From Actinomycetota bacterium (lineage in GTDB: Bacteria > Actinomycetota > Actinomycetes > Nanopelagicales > Nanopelagicaceae): a stretch of 61,877 nucleotides of DNA. The notes under the pieces are model-generated. The model saw nothing but the letters and a program-made list of their open reading frames with translations. It had not been told where the DNA came from and made no database searches. The translations under genes and the position numbers were made by a program. This document shows, one piece after another, positions 7,400 through 18,227 of the stretch (the stretch's first letter is position 1; every line of letters begins with the position of its first letter). The stretch is from assembly GCA_016870835.1 (NCBI GenBank), contig VGAG01000003.1:1-61877 (forward strand). The letters run 5' to 3'.

Positions 7400-7864
7400 A
7401 TGCGGATTTACTTTGCCGGACCACTCTTTACGCCATATGAGAGAAGTTACATCGATCAATGCGCATCAAAGTTGAGAGCTGAGGGATTTGAAGTATTCGT
7501 TCCGCATGAGATTGAACTTCCCAATCAAGTCACAGCAAAATTTATATTTGATGTAGATTCAAAAGAAGTTATGCGCGCAAATGCCGTACTGGCGTTATTA
7601 GACGGTCCGATGGTGGATGATGGAACCGCATCCGAAATTGGAATTTTCTGGGCGGCCATGCGCTCCGATTCCAGTAAAAAAGGAATCATCGGATTAGTTA
7701 CTGATACCCGGGTTATTCGCGATCGCAACATGATTGATGGAAAAGGTATTAATCTCTTTGTTCGTGGCTGTGTAGAAGATGTTGGTGAGGTTGTAGATAA
7801 CTTTGAGAAGGCGTTACCTATATTAAGGAAGTGGCGCTCGGAGCTACCCGCTTCTAATACATGA
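7400..7864 (+). CDS. Nucleoside 2-deoxyribosyltransferase family protein
   Basis: Exchanges the base on (2'-deoxy)ribonucleosides, or hydrolyses modified nucleosides in some relatives. The 154-aa length is typical. The N-terminus MRIYFAGPLFTPYER and DDGTASEIG (73-81), with Glu79 as the likely nucleophile, are diagnostic of the NDT family. The start is the ATG at 7400, with AAGGAG at 7385-7390 as a strong Shine-Dalgarno 9 nt before it; a longer in-frame ATG-less extension is therefore rejected. It is divergent from the MFS operon and convergent (11-bp overlap) with the queuosine-salvage gene. Confidence 0.88.
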   Translation: MRIYFAGPLFTPYERSYIDQCASKLRAEGFEVFVPHEIELPNQVTAKFIFDVDSKEVMRANAVLALLDGPMVDDGTASEIGIFWAAMRSDSSKKGIIGLVTDTRVIRDRNMIDGKGINLFVRGCVEDVGEVVDNFEKALPILRKWRSELPASNT

Positions 7865-8843
7865 TGGTGCGGGTTAAATGATGAGGCCAGTGCGTAGCGT
7901 GATAACTCTTCCAAAATCTGAAATCTACTTGGGGCATTAAAAGCGGCTCAAAGTTCGGGCGACGCTTATTTATCTCCTCTGTCAAAAGCGCAATTGCATA
8001 AATAGAGCTTGCTCGCAATTCAATCTCAGCCTCGCTATCGCGCTTAATCTCTTCAAGTGAATTTATCTTTGTTTCGAGTTCTTGGGCATACTCAAAGATT
8101 CCCATGACTCGAAGAGCAACTGGCACTATGTAGTCTGCGAAAGCGGTTAAATCAGAAGCATCCTCGAGTTTCCAATGTCCTCTTGGCGAAAGAGCTAAGT
8201 GCATTCCCCAGATGCCGAGTTGAGCAAGTTTGTAGATTTGAATCGAGGATCCTCTGTATTGACTTACATCCTGAAAGCGTGGGAATTCAACAACTAGTCG
8301 CTCAAGTAACCCATCTCCGCCGGCATAGAGCCGCGGTGGACAGGACCGGACAAAGTTGTGATATCTGCCCTCAAATTTCTCGACCAAAACTCTTCCAACT
8401 TCATTAAAAATCTTCACTCGTTCATCAATCATAGGCATCTCGATAGTGCCACTGAAGACGCGAGCGAACTCATCATGAGTCAGTTTTGCTAAGTAGTCAC
8501 CACTGAATAGCGGAGTACCCGCGTTAATAGCGCGATGAATACAAGCAAGCATCGCCTCGCTATCACACCACCGTCTTCCTAGGTAATCCGTCTCAAACTT
8601 AACTCCAGAGTGAAAATCGGTAAACGCAAAATTCATCGTGTTTACGACCATCGTGAAGTCCATCAAGTGGTCAGGGTCATTACCAAAGTCAAAGAGCATT
8701 GAGCCATCTGGTTTAGCGAATTCTTCATAAGCCATCCAATTAGCTACTTGAATCAACTTATCTTTATTTATCTCCACCAACGAGGCTTGCTCAATCACCG
8801 GCCTCAAACTTGAGAGCACGGGGGATTGCCAACGGACAGTCAT
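7854..8843 (-). CDS. Queuosine salvage family protein (DUF2419 / Qng1-like N-glycosylase)
   Basis: A 329-aa member of the Q_salvage family (PF10343). Characterised relatives release queuine from queuosine 5'-monophosphate, allowing reuse of the 7-deazaguanine base. Family hallmarks are the NTMNFAF segment near 68-74, FPRFQDVSQYRG near 188-198 followed by IYKLAQL, and DLTAFADYIVPVALRVMGI near 231-249 with conserved Asp237. The C-terminus is basic and aromatic. It lies 14 bp after the second nucleoside ABC permease on the same strand, so it is probably the last gene of the BMP transporter operon. Family membership is well supported; the exact substrate is inferred. Confidence 0.85.
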   Translation of the reverse strand: MTVRWQSPVLSSLRPVIEQASLVEINKDKLIQVANWMAYEEFAKPDGSMLFDFGNDPDHLMDFTMVVNTMNFAFTDFHSGVKFETDYLGRRWCDSEAMLACIHRAINAGTPLFSGDYLAKLTHDEFARVFSGTIEMPMIDERVKIFNEVGRVLVEKFEGRYHNFVRSCPPRLYAGGDGLLERLVVEFPRFQDVSQYRGSSIQIYKLAQLGIWGMHLALSPRGHWKLEDASDLTAFADYIVPVALRVMGIFEYAQELETKINSLEEIKRDSEAEIELRASSIYAIALLTEEINKRRPNFEPLLMPQVDFRFWKSYHATHWPHHLTRTIMY

Positions 8844-8857
8844 AAAAGTTGCAGGCG

Positions 8858-10105
8858 CTACTCAGACCCTCGTCGATAAGGCATTCCTGCCATCGCCGGA
8901 GGAGTGAGTCGTTGCGCTAAGAAGGTAAGCACAATAAGCGTCGCAAGATTCGGGAAAGCGGTTATAAATTCTTGCGGGATATTAGTAACGCGAAGATTCA
9001 TCCAGAGCGCAAATAGCGCGATTCCTCCTGAAACTGCTGCCGGTTTCCACTTACGCGAAAGAACATAATAAAGACTTAGTAATCCAGCGACAATTCCAGC
9101 TGCCATAATCATTGCCATTACAGAATCACTCTGACGCACTCTTAGCGCGTCGGTAAATCCAAAGAGAACAGATCCAGCAAACACTCCGCCAGGTCTCCAA
9201 TTTCCGAAGATAACAGTTGCAAGACCTATAAATCCGCGTCCAGCGGTCTGACCTTCGCGATAAACCGATGAGGCTACGAGCGCGAGATAAGCGCCACCAA
9301 GAGATGCAAGCATTCCCGATACTGAGATCGCGATATAACGAGTCATATAAACATTAATTCCGAGTGATTCAGCTGCCATTGGATTTTCACCAGAAAAGCG
9401 CATCCGAAGCCCGAACTTACTGCGCCACAATATCCATGAAGTGAGTGGTACAAAAAGCAAAAGCCCAACGGTCACAACTGATAGATCTGTGAGGAGACCG
9501 TAGATCAATCCGGAGACATTTGAAATTAGAAAAATATTCTTCTCATCAATACCTTGAAAGAAAGGTGCGAGAACTGGAACAGTAAAGGTCGGAAGAGTCT
9601 CAACTGGAGGGGAGATAGTTCGATCACCGCCCACAGCTGGAAAGAAGATTCCAGAGAGATAGCGGGCAGCCCCTGCAGCAATCAAATTAATTGCAAGACC
9701 AGATACCGCTTGATCAATTCCTATTTTTACAGTCAATATCGCGTGGAATAACCCGGATAGCAATCCAAAAATTGCTGCAGCAAGTAAGCCAACCCAAGGC
9801 CCATGCAAATATCCAAACCAGGCCGCAGTCCATGTTCCAACTATCATCATGCCCTCAAGACCGATATTGATAACACCTGCTCGTTCTGCCCACAGACCAC
9901 CAAGTCCGGCCATTAGTAGTGGAATGGCAAATCGCAAAGTTGCACCAGAGGTTCCAGGAGATGAAATATCGACTGCACTAGTTATGTTCTCTACGAGTGA
10001 GACTACAAGGAAGACGATGGCTATCAGAATTGTTACGCGCGCTGGAGATTTAAAGAAAGACTTCGCTTTCTCAGCTTTATTCGGAGTTGCTGATTGGGTA
10101 CTCAT
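8858..10105 (-). CDS. Nucleoside-type ABC transporter permease (NupQ/YufQ-like)
   Basis: An inner-membrane permease of 415 aa in the BPD_transp_2 family with about ten hydrophobic segments. Typical sequences are LLMAGLGGLWAERAGVINIGLEGMM near 65-88, the cytoplasmic coupling-loop stretch RFSGENPMAAESLGI, and TAGRGFIGLATVIFGNWRPGG. It overlaps the other permease gene by one base (TGATG), and its partner ATPase and BMP binding protein lie upstream in the same operon. An N-terminal cytoplasmic extension of about 25 residues precedes the first membrane segment. Confidence 0.92.
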   Translation of the reverse strand: MSTQSATPNKAEKAKSFFKSPARVTILIAIVFLVVSLVENITSAVDISSPGTSGATLRFAIPLLMAGLGGLWAERAGVINIGLEGMMIVGTWTAAWFGYLHGPWVGLLAAAIFGLLSGLFHAILTVKIGIDQAVSGLAINLIAAGAARYLSGIFFPAVGGDRTISPPVETLPTFTVPVLAPFFQGIDEKNIFLISNVSGLIYGLLTDLSVVTVGLLLFVPLTSWILWRSKFGLRMRFSGENPMAAESLGINVYMTRYIAISVSGMLASLGGAYLALVASSVYREGQTAGRGFIGLATVIFGNWRPGGVFAGSVLFGFTDALRVRQSDSVMAMIMAAGIVAGLLSLYYVLSRKWKPAAVSGGIALFALWMNLRVTNIPQEFITAFPNLATLIVLTFLAQRLTPPAMAGMPYRRGSE

Positions 10106-11196
10106 CAGTTGCTCTCCTTAATCGGTTGCGCTTCTGCGCTAACACTTCCCACCGCACGTTGCTGCTGTCGCAGATTAATTCGTGCGACCACCTCGTATGC
10201 AATCACGATAGAGAGAACGATGGTTCCCTGCATAACAATCACAATCTCAGGCGGAACTCCTTCAAACTCAAGCACAGGAGCCGAGCGCTCAAGGAAGGAC
10301 CATAAAAAGGCAGCGAAAAAGATTCCGACTGGATGATTACGCCCGAGAAGTGCGAGAGCCAATCCAGTAAAGGCATAACCAGCTGGAAAAGCCATGCTGT
10401 ACTTGTGGGTATCCGAAAGTAAAGTTCCAATTCCAACCAGACCAGCGATTGCACCGGATAGTACGGTTGTTACGAAGATCATTCTTGGTGCATTCACGCC
10501 ACTTGCACGCGCAGCCCTAAATGAAAGGCCAGTCGCTTTTAAATTAAAACCAAAGACAGTTTTATTTAACATTACCCAATAGGCGATTCCTACAAAAATG
10601 GCAACAAAAAGGAAAGAGTAAATCTCTCCATCAAAGGCTTTAATAGTTGGCATCTGTCCGCTCGCGGGGATTGGGAAAGTTTGGGCGGTCTGAGAACCTT
10701 CTGGAAGTGTTCCCAACATTGACGGCAAAAGTAGATAAGAAATCACTGCAGCAGCAATGAAATTGAGCATGATGTTACTAATCACTTCATTAACTCCGCG
10801 GCGGACTTTTAAGTAGCCGGCAATAGCGGCCCAAAGTCCACCCGCAATCATCGCTGTGATCACTATTAGTAGAACGTGGAGCACGGGAGGTAGAGCTACT
10901 GCGCCGCCTACTACCGCTCCAAAGAATGCGCCCATGCGGTATTGGCCATCAATACCGATATTGAAAAGCAACATTTTGAAGCCAATTGCTGCGGCAACTC
11001 CTGCCAAGTAATAAGCAATCGTCTGGTTCAACTCTGAGACAAGATTACGTGGATCAAATCCGTAAGAGATCATCAAACTAAACATGCTCAAAGGATCTAC
11101 GCCTCGAATTTTTAGAATGATGTAGATAAATAGAAGTGAATTAAGAATCGCCGCAACTGGAGCGGCTACCGCCCAGAAAATCCTATTTTTTGTCAT
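10105..11196 (-). CDS. Nucleoside-type ABC transporter permease (NupP/YufP-like)
   Basis: A 363-aa BPD_transp_2 permease that pairs with the following one. It has about nine hydrophobic segments, the FNIGIDGQYRMGAFFGAVVG motif, and VISNIMLNFIAAAVISYLL, both characteristic of sugar/nucleoside permeases associated with BMP proteins. It overlaps the ATPase gene by 4 bp (ATGA) and the second permease by 1 bp, so translation of the three membrane-complex genes is coupled. Confidence 0.92.
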   Translation of the reverse strand: MTKNRIFWAVAAPVAAILNSLLFIYIILKIRGVDPLSMFSLMISYGFDPRNLVSELNQTIAYYLAGVAAAIGFKMLLFNIGIDGQYRMGAFFGAVVGGAVALPPVLHVLLIVITAMIAGGLWAAIAGYLKVRRGVNEVISNIMLNFIAAAVISYLLLPSMLGTLPEGSQTAQTFPIPASGQMPTIKAFDGEIYSFLFVAIFVGIAYWVMLNKTVFGFNLKATGLSFRAARASGVNAPRMIFVTTVLSGAIAGLVGIGTLLSDTHKYSMAFPAGYAFTGLALALLGRNHPVGIFFAAFLWSFLERSAPVLEFEGVPPEIVIVMQGTIVLSIVIAYEVVARINLRQQQRAVGSVSAEAQPIKESN

Positions 11197-12707
11197 GCGC
11201 TTTTCGCCCCAGTCATAGCTAGCCCAAGTTGCTCCGGTGTAGTTTTATTTGGATCTAGCGTCGCAACGATGCTTCCGCTGTAAATAACTGCGATTCGATC
11301 AGAGAGCGAGAAGAGTTCATCAAGATCGGCCGAAATAAGAAGGATCCCAGCGCCCTCAGATCGCGCTTTCATTAAGTGATCCCAAATAATTGCTTGGGCG
11401 CCAACATCAACGCCACGCGTTGGTTGGGCGGCGAGAATAACTTTCGGGCTTCCACTCAATTCTCGCCCCACAATGAACTTCTGTTGATTTCCGCCTGAAA
11501 GGGCGCTCGCCAAGACATTTATTCCGGGGGTACGAACATCAAATTCACTCACAACGCGCTTTGAATCTTCTATTGCCTCACCCTTGTTTACCCAGGCGTT
11601 ATTGGCCATGGGAGATGCAAATTGGTGTCCTAGAACTCGATTTTCCCAAAGTGGAGCAGACATCAACAACCCATCGCGCTGACGATCCTGCGGAATATAA
11701 GCAACGCCAGCATTCCTAATATCTTTGGTGAGAGTCTTGGTCGCATCAAGTCCAAGAATTTCAACAGTTCCGCCGCTTGGCTTGACTAGACCCATAATCA
11801 ACTCAATCAATTCGCTCTGGCCATTACCTTCAACTCCAGCAAGGCCAAGAATTTCTCCGCCCTTTAGCTCCAGACTTAAGTTATTGAGTACTTGCCGACC
11901 ATCTTGCCTCATGTAAGAAGCGTTTTTAATCGAAATTAAACTTTCACCAGTTGATTTTGTTGCCCCAGCTCGCGGTTTTGGTAACTCGCCTCCGACCATT
12001 AACTCGGCTAGCTCAACTTTATTTGTGCTCTTTGGAGTTCGCGATGCGACTGTGGCGCCTTGACGCATAATGGTTATCTCATCAGCAATCGAGAGAACTT
12101 CATCAAGCTTATGTGAGATAAACAAGACCGTTAACCCGCGCTTTACTAACTCACGAAGATTTGAAAAAAGCTCTTCTACTTCTTGCGGAACAAGAACTGC
12201 AGTCGGTTCATCAAGAATTAGTATCTTTGCGCCGCGGAATAGAACCTTAGCAATCTCAACTCTTTGACGCTCACCTACGCCAAGGTTTGAAAGTGATTCA
12301 TCGGGGTCTATTTCAAGTCCGTAGTGTTCAGCAATCTCAACTAACTTCTTCCTAGCCTGGTCGAAATTAATAATGAATCCCATGCGAGTCGGCTCGCTGC
12401 CCAGAATTACATTCTCAAGAACTGTGGCGTTATCGGCTAATTTAAAGTGTTGGTGCACCATTCCAATTCCAAGCGCAATCGCATCTTGCGGGGATTTAAG
12501 CTCTACATCTTTACCGAATGCTTTGATATGCCCGGCATCTGGGCGGATGAGTCCATAGAGGATTTTCATCAAAGTAGATTTTCCTGCGCCATTTTCGCCA
12601 ATAATTGCGTGAATCGAGCCTGCTTTTACAGTTAAGGCGACATCGCGATTTGCTATTACACCTGGATACTTCTTCTCTATCCCAACGACATCAAGGACGT
12701 TATCCAT
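11193..12707 (-). CDS. Nucleoside ABC transporter ATP-binding protein (tandem ABC domains, NupO-like)
   Basis: Energises the two permeases. The 504-aa protein carries two ABC cassettes. The first has Walker A GENGAGKST near 36, signature LGVGERQRVEI and Walker B ILILDEPTAVL. The second has a degenerate Walker A (GVEGNGQSE), signature LSGGNQQK and a degenerate Walker B (VILAAQPTRGVD), as is usual in the RbsA/BMP class. The ATG at 12707 is preferred because AGGAG stands 5 nt upstream; a longer frame from 12740 would start inside the hairpin at 12735-12773. Expression is probably damped relative to the binding-protein gene by that hairpin. Confidence 0.93.
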   Translation of the reverse strand: MDNVLDVVGIEKKYPGVIANRDVALTVKAGSIHAIIGENGAGKSTLMKILYGLIRPDAGHIKAFGKDVELKSPQDAIALGIGMVHQHFKLADNATVLENVILGSEPTRMGFIINFDQARKKLVEIAEHYGLEIDPDESLSNLGVGERQRVEIAKVLFRGAKILILDEPTAVLVPQEVEELFSNLRELVKRGLTVLFISHKLDEVLSIADEITIMRQGATVASRTPKSTNKVELAELMVGGELPKPRAGATKSTGESLISIKNASYMRQDGRQVLNNLSLELKGGEILGLAGVEGNGQSELIELIMGLVKPSGGTVEILGLDATKTLTKDIRNAGVAYIPQDRQRDGLLMSAPLWENRVLGHQFASPMANNAWVNKGEAIEDSKRVVSEFDVRTPGINVLASALSGGNQQKFIVGRELSGSPKVILAAQPTRGVDVGAQAIIWDHLMKARSEGAGILLISADLDELFSLSDRIAVIYSGSIVATLDPNKTTPEQLGLAMTGAKSA

Positions 12708-12734
12708 CACGCTCCTGTTTTTACATCGAATATG

Positions 12735-12773
12735 AAACAAAGCGCGCCATGAAGGCCATGGCGCGCTTTGTTT
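12735..12773 (-). terminator. 17-bp perfect hairpin between binding-protein and ATPase genes (attenuator / mRNA stabiliser)
   Basis: Arms 12735-12751 and 12757-12773 are perfectly complementary over 17 bp around a 5-nt loop. The base of the stem is A/T-rich and its core is GCGCGCCATG. It sits 16 bp after the BMP gene stop and 27 bp before the ATPase start. On the transcribed strand the 3' arm ends CTTTGTTT, a weak U-rich tail, so partial termination or 3'-end protection of the binding-protein message is likely. Confidence 0.75.
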
Positions 12774-12789
12774 ACTTCACTCTCTTACT

Positions 12790-13827
12790 TTATGCCTTAG
12801 TTGGATCGGTTGGAACAACCACCTTGCCACGGGCAATTTCTGAGCCGTAGTTATCAATAACTGCTGAGACATCCTTTAGATATCCACCAGTCTTTGTATA
12901 ACCAACGCCACCCTGCTTGAAGCCCCAGGTCTTGATTCCTGCAGTTTTCTTGCCTGCAAGAGAATCATTTACGAAGGCACGCACGCCAAGATCAACGCGC
13001 TTCAACATGGAGGTAAGGATTGTTGACTTGTATGCAGCGTGTGCTGGATAAGTTGCCTCATCAGCATCAACGCCAATTGACCACTTCTTCAACTCAGAAG
13101 CAGCCTTGTGCATACCGGTTCCGGTTCCACCTGCAGCTGCGTAGACAACGTCTGCGCCATTCTGATACATACCCTTAGCAGCTTCGTATCCCTTTGCAGG
13201 ATCATTGAAGCCAGAGAAATCTGGGAAGTTAGAGATGTATGTGGATTGGATTTTGATCTTTGGGTTAATCGCCTTTGCACCAGCAATGTAACCAGCTTCG
13301 AATTTCTTGATTAGCGGAGTATTAACGCCACCAATAAATCCAACGCTTCCAGTCTTAGTTGTCATTGCCGCAGCAAGACCTACAAGGTATGAGCCTTCTT
13401 CTTCCTTGAAGACGATTCCTTGTACGTTTGGCGCCTTAACGCTTGAATCATCGACGATTCCCCATTGTACTTTCGGGAATTCTGGTGCGACTTTTGCAAG
13501 CGCTGAAGCATAGGTAAATCCAACGACGACGATTGGATTCGCGCCACGCTTCGCCATTAAGCGAAGACGTTCTGTGCGCTGATCATCAGTGCCGGTTGGA
13601 CTGTCCTGTGACTCAATGAGCTTTATAGCCTTGTTCTTGCCCAAGATTGGCTTAACACCAATATAGGCAAGTTGGTTAAAGCCCGGAACTTCGCGTCCGC
13701 CCAAGCTATACGCGATACCAATTGTCTTGGTTGCAGCTTGAGCTGGAGCAATTGCCATTAATCCTGAAAGCGCAACTGCGCCAGCGAAGATTGAGGCACC
13801 GAGTTTGCGAAGAGTTTTCTTCTGCAT
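12790..13827 (-). CDS. BMP-family substrate-binding protein of the nucleoside ABC transporter
   Basis: Extracytoplasmic receptor of 345 aa in the basic membrane protein / PnrA-like family, which binds purine and other nucleosides. A signal peptide (KK-T-LRK, hydrophobic core to residue about 27, APAQA cleavage after residue 31) is followed by the BMP fold, with IGIAYSLGGREVPGFNQLAY near 37-56 and the typical GVDADEATYPAHAAYKSTILTS. No lipobox cysteine is present, so it appears to be a signal peptidase I substrate rather than a lipoprotein. It has a strong Shine-Dalgarno (AAGGAG, 8 nt before the ATG) and is the first gene of the transporter operon. Confidence 0.93.
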   Translation of the reverse strand: MQKKTLRKLGASIFAGAVALSGLMAIAPAQAATKTIGIAYSLGGREVPGFNQLAYIGVKPILGKNKAIKLIESQDSPTGTDDQRTERLRLMAKRGANPIVVVGFTYASALAKVAPEFPKVQWGIVDDSSVKAPNVQGIVFKEEEGSYLVGLAAAMTTKTGSVGFIGGVNTPLIKKFEAGYIAGAKAINPKIKIQSTYISNFPDFSGFNDPAKGYEAAKGMYQNGADVVYAAAGGTGTGMHKAASELKKWSIGVDADEATYPAHAAYKSTILTSMLKRVDLGVRAFVNDSLAGKKTAGIKTWGFKQGGVGYTKTGGYLKDVSAVIDNYGSEIARGKVVVPTDPTKA

Positions 13828-14048: not shown

Positions 14049-14984
14049 ATGAGCGCTCTTAACCGAAGGCCCCCAGAAATCGTTGTAGTCGGAAGCACGA
14101 TGACCGACATGATCGCTTATGTAACTCGAGCTCCAAACTCTGGAGAAACTGTGATTGGCGACTCATTTTCCCTTGGCTTTGGGGGTAAAGGGGCAAATCA
14201 GGCTGTTATGTCGAGCCGCTTTGGGGCGAAGGTAAAGATGATTAACACCCTCGGGGATGATGTTTTCGGGGAAACAACTTTGAAGAACTTTAAGGAACAG
14301 GGAATCGATACAACTTATGTAAATCGAGTTCCAGGACCCAGCGGAGTAGCTCCAATCTGGGTTGAGGCTGATGGCTCCAATCGAATCATCTGTGTACCAG
14401 GTGCGAACTTTGCAATGACTGTCCCACAGGTTCAAAGCGCGCTCTCAGAAATTTCTGAAATTGATGTTTTAGTTGGCCAATTGGAAATTCGCCAAGAAGT
14501 TAGCGCCGCTGCTTTTGCCGCCGCTCGCGCTAGAGGTATTACAACAATTCTTAACCCGGCGCCCTTCGCACCTCTTTTACCAGAACTACTCAAGAATTCA
14601 GATTGGGTGATTCCAAACGAAACCGAGTTCGCAGGTCTAGATAAGTCAGGCAGAGCTCCTGATAGCGATGATGTGATTATTGATGTAGCCCGAAATCTAA
14701 ATTGCAGATTAGTGGTAACTCTGGGAGAAAAAGGCGCTGCCTATGTCGATAGAGATTGGAAAGTGGTCCGTGTGGCTGCTCCAAAAGTTACCGCTATAGA
14801 TACAACCGGAGCTGGAGATGCATTTGTGGGCGCATTTGCCGTTGGACTTGGTCTTGGTTTTGAGCCACTTAAAGCGGTAAAGCTTGGTTGCGCCTCAGCC
14901 TCACTTAGCGTGACTCGAAAAGGAACCCAATCCTCCTACCCAAGTAAGCAAGAGGCTTTAGAGCTACTCTCTCAAGTTGATTAG
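14049..14984 (+). CDS. rbsK: Ribokinase (PfkB family)
   Basis: Phosphorylates ribose to ribose 5-phosphate, consuming the ribose released by the nucleoside hydrolases. The 311-aa PfkB protein has the N-terminal GGKGANQA substrate motif near 41-48, NETEF in the middle and the C-terminal DTTGAGDAFVGAF with the catalytic Asp. GAAAGGGG lies about 11 nt upstream of the ATG. It is divergent from the nucleoside transporter operon and ends 11 bp from the convergent aldehyde dehydrogenase gene. A deoxyribokinase role is a possible alternative in this context. Confidence 0.9.
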   Translation: MSALNRRPPEIVVVGSTMTDMIAYVTRAPNSGETVIGDSFSLGFGGKGANQAVMSSRFGAKVKMINTLGDDVFGETTLKNFKEQGIDTTYVNRVPGPSGVAPIWVEADGSNRIICVPGANFAMTVPQVQSALSEISEIDVLVGQLEIRQEVSAAAFAAARARGITTILNPAPFAPLLPELLKNSDWVIPNETEFAGLDKSGRAPDSDDVIIDVARNLNCRLVVTLGEKGAAYVDRDWKVVRVAAPKVTAIDTTGAGDAFVGAFAVGLGLGFEPLKAVKLGCASASLSVTRKGTQSSYPSKQEALELLSQVD

Positions 14985-14995
14985 ATGGCGATTGA

Positions 14996-15835
14996 TTAGA
15001 TGCCGATCGGGTGCCAGACCGTCTTGTACTCCATAAAAGAGAGCATCCGCGCAGGAGAAACATCCATATTGAAGCGATGAATCCGCTTTAGATTCTCACT
15101 TCCCAATCTCTTTAATTCGCCATCAAGTGTTTTCTGAGCACCAGAGATATCCAATCCATCAACTTCCATATGTCCGGCTAGCCATGAGATTAACTCACTT
15201 CGTTTTCCAGTAAGAACATTTACAACACCATGAGGTAAGTCGCTTGTGGCAAGTACTTCAGCGAGAGTAATTGCCGGAAGTGGGGCTGACTCACTAGCAA
15301 TTAATACAGTGGTATTACCGCCTGCAATTACTGGTGCTAATCCGCGAGTGAGGCCAAGGAGTGATTCTCTTTCCTCGGCGATAATTCCAACAACTCCTAA
15401 CGGTTCTGGGATGGTGAAGTTGTAATAAGGACCTGCGATTGGATTTGTGCCACCGGCTGATGCTGAAATCTTGTCGCACCAACCTGCGTACCAAACCCAC
15501 AAATCAATTGCGGATTGAACTTGTTTCTTAGCCGCTGCTTCACCGACGCCTTCAAGCGCACTTATCTCAGCAATAAATTGTGAACTTCTTCCCTCGAGCA
15601 TTTCAGCAATTCGATAAAGGATCTGTCCACGATTAAATGCAGTCGCATGTGACCAACCACTAAAAGCTCCGCGAGCCGCAACGACTGCATCGCGAAGGTC
15701 TTTACGAGAAGCGAGCGCTGGATTTGCGATGAAGTTGCCCTTCTTATCTTTCAATTCATATGAACGACCGGATTCACTCCGTGGGAATGCCCCGCCGATA
15801 TAAAGCTTGTAGGTCTTCATCACATCAAGGCGCAT
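14996..15835 (-). CDS. Truncated aldehyde dehydrogenase-like protein (no catalytic domain)
   Basis: A 279-aa homologue of the N-terminal, NAD-binding half of aldehyde dehydrogenases: YIGGAF near 12-17, EPLGVVGII, GGNTTVLIASESAPLPAITLAEVL and GVVNVLTG align with the first 230 residues of the full-length gene next door. The segment that should hold the catalytic Glu and the CCAGSR cysteine is missing, and the remainder jumps to a C-terminal-like end (KTVWHPIGI). PWNFPL is replaced by EERESL, so the Asn of the oxyanion hole is also lost. It starts 1 bp inside the upstream ALDH (TAATG overlap). It is probably a non-catalytic partner; a decaying gene is less likely given the intact frame and coupling. 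Confidence 0.85.
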   Translation of the reverse strand: MRLDVMKTYKLYIGGAFPRSESGRSYELKDKKGNFIANPALASRKDLRDAVVAARGAFSGWSHATAFNRGQILYRIAEMLEGRSSQFIAEISALEGVGEAAAKKQVQSAIDLWVWYAGWCDKISASAGGTNPIAGPYYNFTIPEPLGVVGIIAEERESLLGLTRGLAPVIAGGNTTVLIASESAPLPAITLAEVLATSDLPHGVVNVLTGKRSELISWLAGHMEVDGLDISGAQKTLDGELKRLGSENLKRIHRFNMDVSPARMLSFMEYKTVWHPIGI

Positions 15836-17283
15836 TATCTAGCTCCCTTTATATATGCAGCTAAACCATGGCGGCCACCCTCGCGTCCCCATCCTGATTC
15901 TTTATAGCCGCCAAATGGGCTAGCAGCATCGAACTTATTAAAAGTATTTGCCCATATAACGCCGGCTTTCAACTCATTTGCAGCCCAGAGAATCTTGGAT
16001 CCTTTCTCGGTCCAGACTCCCGCCGATAGGCCAAACGGAGTGTTATTTGCCTTCTCCATCGCCTCTTGTGGAGTGCGGAATGTAAGTACAGATAGGACTG
16101 GGCCAAAAATCTCTTCGCGCGCAATTCGATGTGCTTGGGTAACGCCAGTAAATATGGTGGGAGCAAACCAATATCCCTTAGTTGGTAATGAGCAAGGCGC
16201 GCTCCAGATTTGTGCGCCTTCTTTGCTACCTGATTCAGACATCTCTTTAATCTTCGCAAGTTGGGCGCTGGAGTTGATTGCTCCAAGATCGGTGTTCTTA
16301 TCTAGTGGATCGCCAACTCTAATTTTCGCCATTCGCGACTGGAGCTTCTCAACAAATTCATCGACGATACTTTCTTGCAGTAGCAATCTTGAGCCAGCGC
16401 AGCAGACATGGCCTTGGTTGAAGAAGATTCCATTTACGATGCCTTCTACCGCTTCATCGATTGGCGCATCATCAAAGACGATATTTGCACCCTTGCCACC
16501 AAGTTCAAGGGTTGCTGGAATTCCACGATCAGAGATTGCTTTTGCAATTAGTTTTCCAACTTCAGTTGAACCGGTAAATGCAATCTTGTCGATATCTTTA
16601 TGATTAACGAGAGATGCTCCGGTACTTCCATCACCGGTGATGATATTTACAACGCCGGCTGGTAATTCTGCCTGTTCGCAAACTTCAGCAAATAGCAGAG
16701 CTGTTAGAGGTGTTGTCTCCGCGGGTTTTAGAACCACGGTATTTCCAGTCGCAAGTGCAGGTGCGACTTTCCAGGCAAGCATTAAGAGCGGGAAATTCCA
16801 GGGAATGATCTGTGCAACTACGCCATGAGGTTTTGGATTTGCGCCAAAGCCGGCGTATTCAAGTTTGTCGGCCCACCCGGCGTGATAGAAAAAGTGCGCC
16901 GCAGCGAGTGGAACATCTACATCGCGGGTCTCCCGGATTGGCTTGCCATTATCAAGGGCCTCTAAAACGGCGAATTCACGGGCTCGCTCTTGGAGTAAGC
17001 GGGCAATTCGAAAGAGGTATTTTGCGCGTTCTTTAGGAGGCATCTTCGCCCAAACCTTGTTGTAAGCGGCGCGCGCTGCCTTTACTGCTTTATCTATATC
17101 AACAGAATCAGCCAGCGAGACTTTAGAGAGAACTTCTTCATTAGAGGGGTTGATGCTGGCAAAACGTTTCTTCGAGTGCGGAGCCACCCACTTTCCGTTT
17201 ATATAAAGTCCATAATCGCTCTTGATATTAACGATTGCGCGCGATTCAGGTGCGGGTGCGTACTCAAAAATCTCAGTGCTCAT
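15835..17283 (-). CDS. Aldehyde dehydrogenase, full length
   Basis: NAD(P)-dependent oxidation of an aldehyde; in this operon the likely substrate is acetaldehyde produced by DeoC (inference). The 482-aa protein has all the class features: PWNFPL with Asn163, GSTEVG coenzyme loop near 239-243, ELGGKG with Glu260, and GHVCCAGSR with catalytic Cys294. It lies 2 bp after deoC and overlaps the truncated paralogue by one base, giving a coupled deoC - ALDH - ALDH-like trio. Confidence 0.93.
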   Translation of the reverse strand: MSTEIFEYAPAPESRAIVNIKSDYGLYINGKWVAPHSKKRFASINPSNEEVLSKVSLADSVDIDKAVKAARAAYNKVWAKMPPKERAKYLFRIARLLQERAREFAVLEALDNGKPIRETRDVDVPLAAAHFFYHAGWADKLEYAGFGANPKPHGVVAQIIPWNFPLLMLAWKVAPALATGNTVVLKPAETTPLTALLFAEVCEQAELPAGVVNIITGDGSTGASLVNHKDIDKIAFTGSTEVGKLIAKAISDRGIPATLELGGKGANIVFDDAPIDEAVEGIVNGIFFNQGHVCCAGSRLLLQESIVDEFVEKLQSRMAKIRVGDPLDKNTDLGAINSSAQLAKIKEMSESGSKEGAQIWSAPCSLPTKGYWFAPTIFTGVTQAHRIAREEIFGPVLSVLTFRTPQEAMEKANNTPFGLSAGVWTEKGSKILWAANELKAGVIWANTFNKFDAASPFGGYKESGWGREGGRHGLAAYIKGAR

Positions 17284-17285
17284 TA

Positions 17286-18227
17286 CTAATCCACCGTAAC
17301 ATAATTAGAACCCGAATATCTGCCATCGCGCAATTTCATCCGCTGCATCAACAAATCATTAAGTAGCGCGCTCGCCCCAATCCTAAATAGATCCGGAGTT
17401 AGCCATTCAGGTCCGGTAGTTTCATTAACTAGCACCAGCTGCTTGATTGCATCTTTAGTAGTCCTTATTCCACCAGCTGGTTTTACCCCGATTCGTCTTC
17501 CAGTCAATTTGTAAAAGTCGCGAACTGCTTCAAGCATCACCAAAACCACAGGTGCCGTAGCCGCAGGAGTAACTTTGCCAGTACTTGTCTTTATGAAATC
17601 TGCGCCAGCTAACATTGCAAGATAGGAAGCTTTACGGACGTTGTCATAGGTAGCAAGCTCACCTGTTTCAAGGATTACTTTTAAGTGGGCCCTATCGCCA
17701 CAGAGTGATTTGATTTCCTTAATCTCAGCGAATACTTCTCCAAGTCTTCCCGATAAGAAAGCGCCGCGATCAATCACCATATCTATTTCACCAGCGCCCG
17801 CCTCAATCGCATCCTTTGTATCGCGCAACTTAACTTCCATCGAAGCTCTTCCCGATGGGAAAGCCGTAGAGACAGCTGCTACTGGTATCTCGTGCCCGCC
17901 GATTGAATCCAAGTGTTTACGTGCAATTTCAACCATATCGTTGTAGACACAAATTGCGCCGACGTGGGGGACAGTTACATCAGTTGGATCTGGGCGAAAA
18001 CCCTTGGCGCAAAGTGATCGGACCTTTCCTGGGGTATCTGCACCTTCTAATGTGGTGAGATCAACCATCCTGATTGCAAGATCGATCGCCTTCGCTTTGC
18101 TTGTGGTCTTAATGCTGCGCGTTGCCAACATGGCAGCTCTGGCTTCGGCTCCGACCTTGTCGACTCCAGGCAGGTTATCTAGAAAAGCGCGAAGCGAACT
18201 TTCACTGCCATCAATCAGGCTAATCAC
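17286..18227 (-). CDS. deoC: Deoxyribose-phosphate aldolase
   Basis: Splits 2-deoxyribose 5-phosphate into glyceraldehyde 3-phosphate and acetaldehyde. The 313-aa length matches the longer DeoC class. Active-site residues are visible: Asp149 (GEIDMVID), the Schiff-base Lys213 in DFIKTSTGK, and Lys249 in GVKPAGGIRT. It is 3 bp downstream of the phosphosugar mutase and 2 bp upstream of ALDH, so the operon encodes the path from deoxyribose 1-phosphate to acetate-level carbon. Confidence 0.95.
   Translation of the reverse strand: MISLIDGSESSLRAFLDNLPGVDKVGAEARAAMLATRSIKTTSKAKAIDLAIRMVDLTTLEGADTPGKVRSLCAKGFRPDPTDVTVPHVGAICVYNDMVEIARKHLDSIGGHEIPVAAVSTAFPSGRASMEVKLRDTKDAIEAGAGEIDMVIDRGAFLSGRLGEVFAEIKEIKSLCGDRAHLKVILETGELATYDNVRKASYLAMLAGADFIKTSTGKVTPAATAPVVLVMLEAVRDFYKLTGRRIGVKPAGGIRTTKDAIKQLVLVNETTGPEWLTPDLFRIGASALLNDLLMQRMKLRDGRYSGSNYVTVD

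Follow-up and report, generated by a model that had tools for sequence, protein, structure and literature searches.

A perfect 17-bp hairpin as a probable 3'-end element within a bmp importer operon of an acI-type actinobacterium

A perfect 17-bp hairpin separates bmp, the gene of a substrate-binding protein, from the translocator genes of the same importer operon in an acI-type Nanopelagicaceae genome. Very probably, this hairpin is an intra-operon 3'-end element which would set the amount of binding protein above that of the translocator by way of a stable bmp-only message. acI bacteria rank with the most abundant microbes of freshwater and live by high-affinity import; few of them have been cultured. 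A conserved element fixing an excess of binding protein would explain how unequal protein amounts can arise from one operon in a streamlined genome. Furthermore, a mechanism tested in Clostridia would reach another phylum, and heavily used importers could be spotted from MAGs.

The window, that is, the whole stretch of 61,877 nucleotides analyzed, carries the importer operon on its minus strand. The first gene is bmp (12790-13827; PnrA/BMP family; Pfam Bmp PF02608, E = 1.4e-52), which ends with the stop codon TAA at 12790-12792. It is followed by a gene encoding an ABC ATPase with two ABC domains (11193-12707; ABC_tran matching in two stretches, E = 3.1e-50) and by two permease genes, both matching BPD_transp_2, at 10105-11196 (E = 3.6e-35) and 8858-10105 (E = 1.1e-32). 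The start codon of the ATPase gene was located at ATG 12705-12707 from the sequence and the alignment of orthologues, and the sequence AGGAG at 12712-12716, beyond the hairpin, is its likely ribosome-binding site. A mechanical ORF call had placed a TTG start at 12740, within the hairpin; this start was rejected, as AGGAG, the ATG, and the orthologue alignment put the true start outside. Occlusion of the ATPase ribosome site by the stem is ruled out, because both the start codon and AGGAG lie outside it.

A queuosine-salvage protein gene (7854-8843, minus strand; Pfam Q_salvage) comes next, 14 nt 3' of the importer operon, and hints that queuine or a nucleoside of the queuosine type may be one of the cargoes. 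Divergent from bmp, the region 14049-18227 contains a gene of a PfkB-family (ribokinase-like) kinase. Beyond it lie genes resembling those of aldehyde dehydrogenases and one that probably encodes a deoxyribose-phosphate aldolase, both assigned from the sequence. This gene content fits the use of nucleosides or deoxyribose.

The hairpin occupies positions 12735-12773 of the minus strand; it begins 16 nt 3' of the bmp stop codon and ends 27 nt 5' of the ATPase start. Its arms (12735-12751 and 12757-12773) comprise 17 nt each, are 100% complementary, and lie 5 nt apart. As RNA, the stem-loop is predicted to fold with about -29 kcal/mol; a stretch of 61 nt around it gave a folding z-score of -6.7, and no shuffled sequence folded equally well. 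A preliminary description had reported a mismatch-free 17-bp stem with a 5-nt loop in the order binding-protein gene, hairpin, translocator; the complementarity of both arms agrees with the former, and Pfam matches and gene order bear out the latter. The 3' arm ends with TTTGTTT, which is base-paired with AAACAAA. A simple scan for terminators missed the hairpin of the window, probably because the stem absorbs its own U-rich tail. Searching the window with Rfam covariance models returned one tRNA only and no family match for the hairpin.

All 49 contigs of the MAG (1.01 Mb, 76% complete), whose closest named loci are from Candidatus Nanopelagicaceae, were scanned for similar structures. Perfect hairpins with a stem of at least 10 bp occur only 16 times, and the one in the window is the longest; the second-longest is located 3' of another Bmp binding-protein gene. 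Eight order-1 Markov genomes, generated at the same size, contained no stem longer than 12 bp. No sequence copy of the window hairpin was found elsewhere in the genome, where it is thus single-copy.

Conservation was analyzed in orthologues of bmp. Twelve loci with the region 3' of the bmp orthologue were obtained from named genome records, and a strong stem was present at the bmp/ATPase junction in all twelve. A wider search of the order added 24 loci with identities down to about 45%, four of them repeating earlier stems; 17 of the 24 showed a strong stem by simple search, whereas in the remaining seven, L134-L140, the stem has a bulge or a small interior loop. Altogether, the set comprises 33 distinct loci including the window, and every bmp orthologue with an available downstream region has a stem at this junction. 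Such a stem was also found, within the genus, at a bmp paralogue (31-36% identity) with permease genes downstream.

Covariation was determined for the 11 closest sequences, with the window among them. In a core of 14 bp, 99.4% of the cells are paired, and double changes occur at nine of the 14 pairs. None of 500 shuffles matched the core in percentage paired, double changes, or covariation score; as to how many pair types occur, the core did not exceed these shuffles. When the partner was shifted by 1-3 columns, pairing of the core dropped to 24-53%. The preliminary description had considered the hairpin unusual and hence selected, and had proposed compensatory changes as a check on conservation of the stem. 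The double changes provide this conservation, and together with the rarity of long stems in the genome they support selection.

The spacer between the bmp stop codon and the hairpin (12774-12789, minus strand) is A/T-rich and contains, as revealed by an alignment of 11 orthologues, a TAAGTAA-type sequence in most of them (loci L033-L046). This motif, which supplies stops in several frames, recurs ahead of other binding-protein hairpins and was found at 5 of 38 hairpin genes versus 9 of 831 others (p = 2e-4).

A hairpin at the junction of binding-protein and translocator genes is a general rule in this genome. The genome was searched with six binding-protein families, and the 3' ends of all 902 genes predicted by a simple custom gene caller were scanned. 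Hairpins of -18 kcal/mol or better followed 11 of 16 matches to binding-protein families, as opposed to 27 of the remaining 886 genes (p = 6e-13), and two among these 27 encode further binding proteins, namely SBP_bac_6 and a PstS-like PBP_like_2. Where the gene of a permease or an ATPase lies codirectionally after a binding-protein gene, about 10 of 12 junctions carry a hairpin, as compared to 19 of the roughly 637 remaining junctions between codirectional genes; the p-value of 4e-13 is indicative only, since the 12 junctions were compiled by hand after the hairpins had been seen. The two of these about twelve junctions without a clear hairpin in the gap belong to an SBP_bac_1 gene on contig C9 and an SBP_bac_3 gene on contig C35, where the stem extends into the next reading frame. 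Two candidates, neither with a hairpin, were not counted as junctions: a Peripla_BP_4 match (contig C10, 318-1328), which precedes an alpha-amylase gene and probably encodes a LacI-type regulator, and a third Bmp-like gene (contig C4, 13374-14384), which adjoins a tRNA synthetase gene and has no translocator genes downstream.

An inverted repeat arising by chance, without any selected function, is extremely improbable, given that stems in the Markov genomes never exceeded the length stated above and that the stem is kept in all orthologues with downstream sequence. The palindrome might instead act as DNA, being an operator bound by protein, a REP-like element, or a mobile repeat. Its perfect symmetry would be in keeping with this, as would a GYGCG sequence in the middle of the stem which is similar among close relatives. 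However, the hairpin has no second copy, and different binding-protein genes of the MAG carry unrelated stem sequences. Distant groups of orthologues have no evident arm sequence in common; the arms are changed completely yet stay paired. G-U pairs occur in the core stem of the close sequences. Covariation and single copy number largely rule out such a function as DNA, which we regard as very unlikely.

The conserved part of the element is the stem, whereas the U-tract is weak and unconserved across bmp orthologues. Canonical intrinsic terminators have a conserved unpaired run of U after a GC-rich stem; here the U-tract is short, paired, and variable. Consequently, the step in transcription caused by termination may be small or absent, and the state of the U-tract speaks against efficient classical termination as the conserved property. 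In the tightest orthologue (L037), the start codon follows the core stem at a distance of only about 18 nt. This is too short for a separate promoter; the translocator genes are therefore unlikely to be transcribed from a start site beyond the stem and would depend on read-through. A promoter may be present within bmp or overlap the hairpin, which we have counted against the preferred explanation.

According to this preferred explanation, a 3'-end element acting inside the operon, transcription would begin upstream of bmp, and a fraction of the polymerases would halt at the hairpin, or the message would be shortened to the stem afterwards, by a cut or by trimming. The very stable stem would bar 3'-to-5' exonucleases and a stable bmp-only message would build up. 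Polymerases reading through would produce a longer and rarer message with the ATPase and permease genes, on which the ATPase start would lie outside the stem. We infer the step in expression, the partial termination, and the exonuclease block from the stem, its position, rarity, covariation, and recurrence, and the weak U-tract. The preliminary description had named partial termination and protection of the 3' end as mechanisms; partial termination and processing followed by trimming appear about equally probable as the source of the short message.

The element could mainly be a partial intrinsic terminator, whose long GC-rich stem with the paired, U-poor tail TTTGTTT would alone set the ratio; we give this a little less than an even chance. 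The same architecture in Ruminiclostridium terminates at 21-96% in reporters (PMC9045158), and the window hairpin has 5-6 T per 8 bases. However, the T content is lower than at hairpins situated where genes of this genome converge, both for the binding-protein hairpins (p = 0.009) and for the hairpins of bmp orthologues (p = 0.018), with small samples in either comparison; moreover, the U-tract is nearly missing in the orthologues L033 (GTAACAAAAG), L041, and L042. Conservation of the stem and not of the U-tract favors an element acting mainly in 3' stabilization or processing, to which we attach a probability likewise somewhat short of even. Here, the full message would be made first; after a downstream cut, or termination by Rho, trimming would proceed as far as the stem and leave the bmp part protected. 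The genome encodes Rho and also a PNPase-like protein, which has two RNase PH domains, its EF-Tu gene has a strong stem devoid of a U-tract, and structured 3' ends lacking U are common in Term-seq data of Streptomyces (PMC8269248). Against this stand a short U-rich stretch retained in several orthologues and the fact that neither a cleavage site nor a downstream fragment is known.

The bmp hairpin is well supported as a known kind of control element occurring in another bacterial group. Wu et al. 2022 (PMC9045158) described internal terminators 3' of the binding-protein genes of many ABC importer operons in Ruminiclostridium cellulolyticum and other Clostridia, using reporter and Northern tests; these have long GC stems and few U, with the U-tract paired with the 5' side. 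Likewise, the bmp hairpin lies between a 5' binding-protein gene and codirectional translocator genes and has a single GC-rich stem whose folding energy is inside the range of that class (about -10 to -38 kcal/mol). Its U-tract is paired and U-poorer than those of convergent ends, and such hairpins recur over many importer operons. Unlike the clostridial class, it belongs to Actinomycetota, several orthologues have a still weaker U-tract, and it is predicted from sequence.

In operons with selective RNA processing and stabilization, such as cip-cel (PMC4423207, PMC10311766) or those predicted by SLOFE (PMC8219983), a stable intergenic stem-loop similarly comes after the gene whose protein is required in surplus, although no processing site is known at the bmp hairpin. 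Structured "I-shaped" transcript ends lacking U have been mapped in Streptomyces by Term-seq (PMC8269248, PMC8914203); they are also actinobacterial 3' stems with few U but lie at transcript ends, whereas the bmp hairpin is a predicted structure within an operon. Metatranscriptomes of acI bacteria showed binding-protein genes of some transporters far above median expression (PMC5574706). Among open-access papers, we found no report of such hairpins in acI bacteria. In Escherichia coli, REP stem-loops between malE and malF, the binding-protein and permease genes, shield the upstream message. By analogy, the bmp hairpin, which also separates a binding-protein gene from the genes of its permeases, may protect the upstream message; unlike REP, a dispersed repeat family, it is present once.

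Of additional interest, strong hairpins are concentrated at binding-protein genes and other high-output genes of this streamlined genome. Further strong stems were found 3' of the genes encoding EF-Tu, two GroEL proteins, the ribosomal proteins L1, L7/L12, L17, L27, L31, and S1, HU, a 5'-nucleotidase, and actinorhodopsin. Most of these genes are of very highly expressed kinds. Actinorhodopsin is very highly expressed in acI bacteria (PMC5574706). A few strong stems follow genes without a reputation for high expression, namely those of a DoxX-like protein and a PfkB kinase. Throughout acI, strong U-poor hairpins might mark the mRNA 3' ends of the few most abundant proteins, such as binding proteins, EF-Tu, GroEL, ribosomal proteins, and rhodopsin, chiefly as exonuclease barriers and not as terminators; we consider this broader reading rather unlikely. 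If true, the genome sequence by itself would reveal which genes are highly expressed.

The stem at the EF-Tu gene (L067:12000-12060, contig C8) is a strong one of 12 bp (GGCTGGGGCGGGAAATCTCGCCCCAGCT) without a U-tract, and the next gene lies on the same strand. The two GroEL genes are located on contigs C14 and C4 (L085:7614-9233 and L059:14229-15863), and each carries a strong 3' hairpin.
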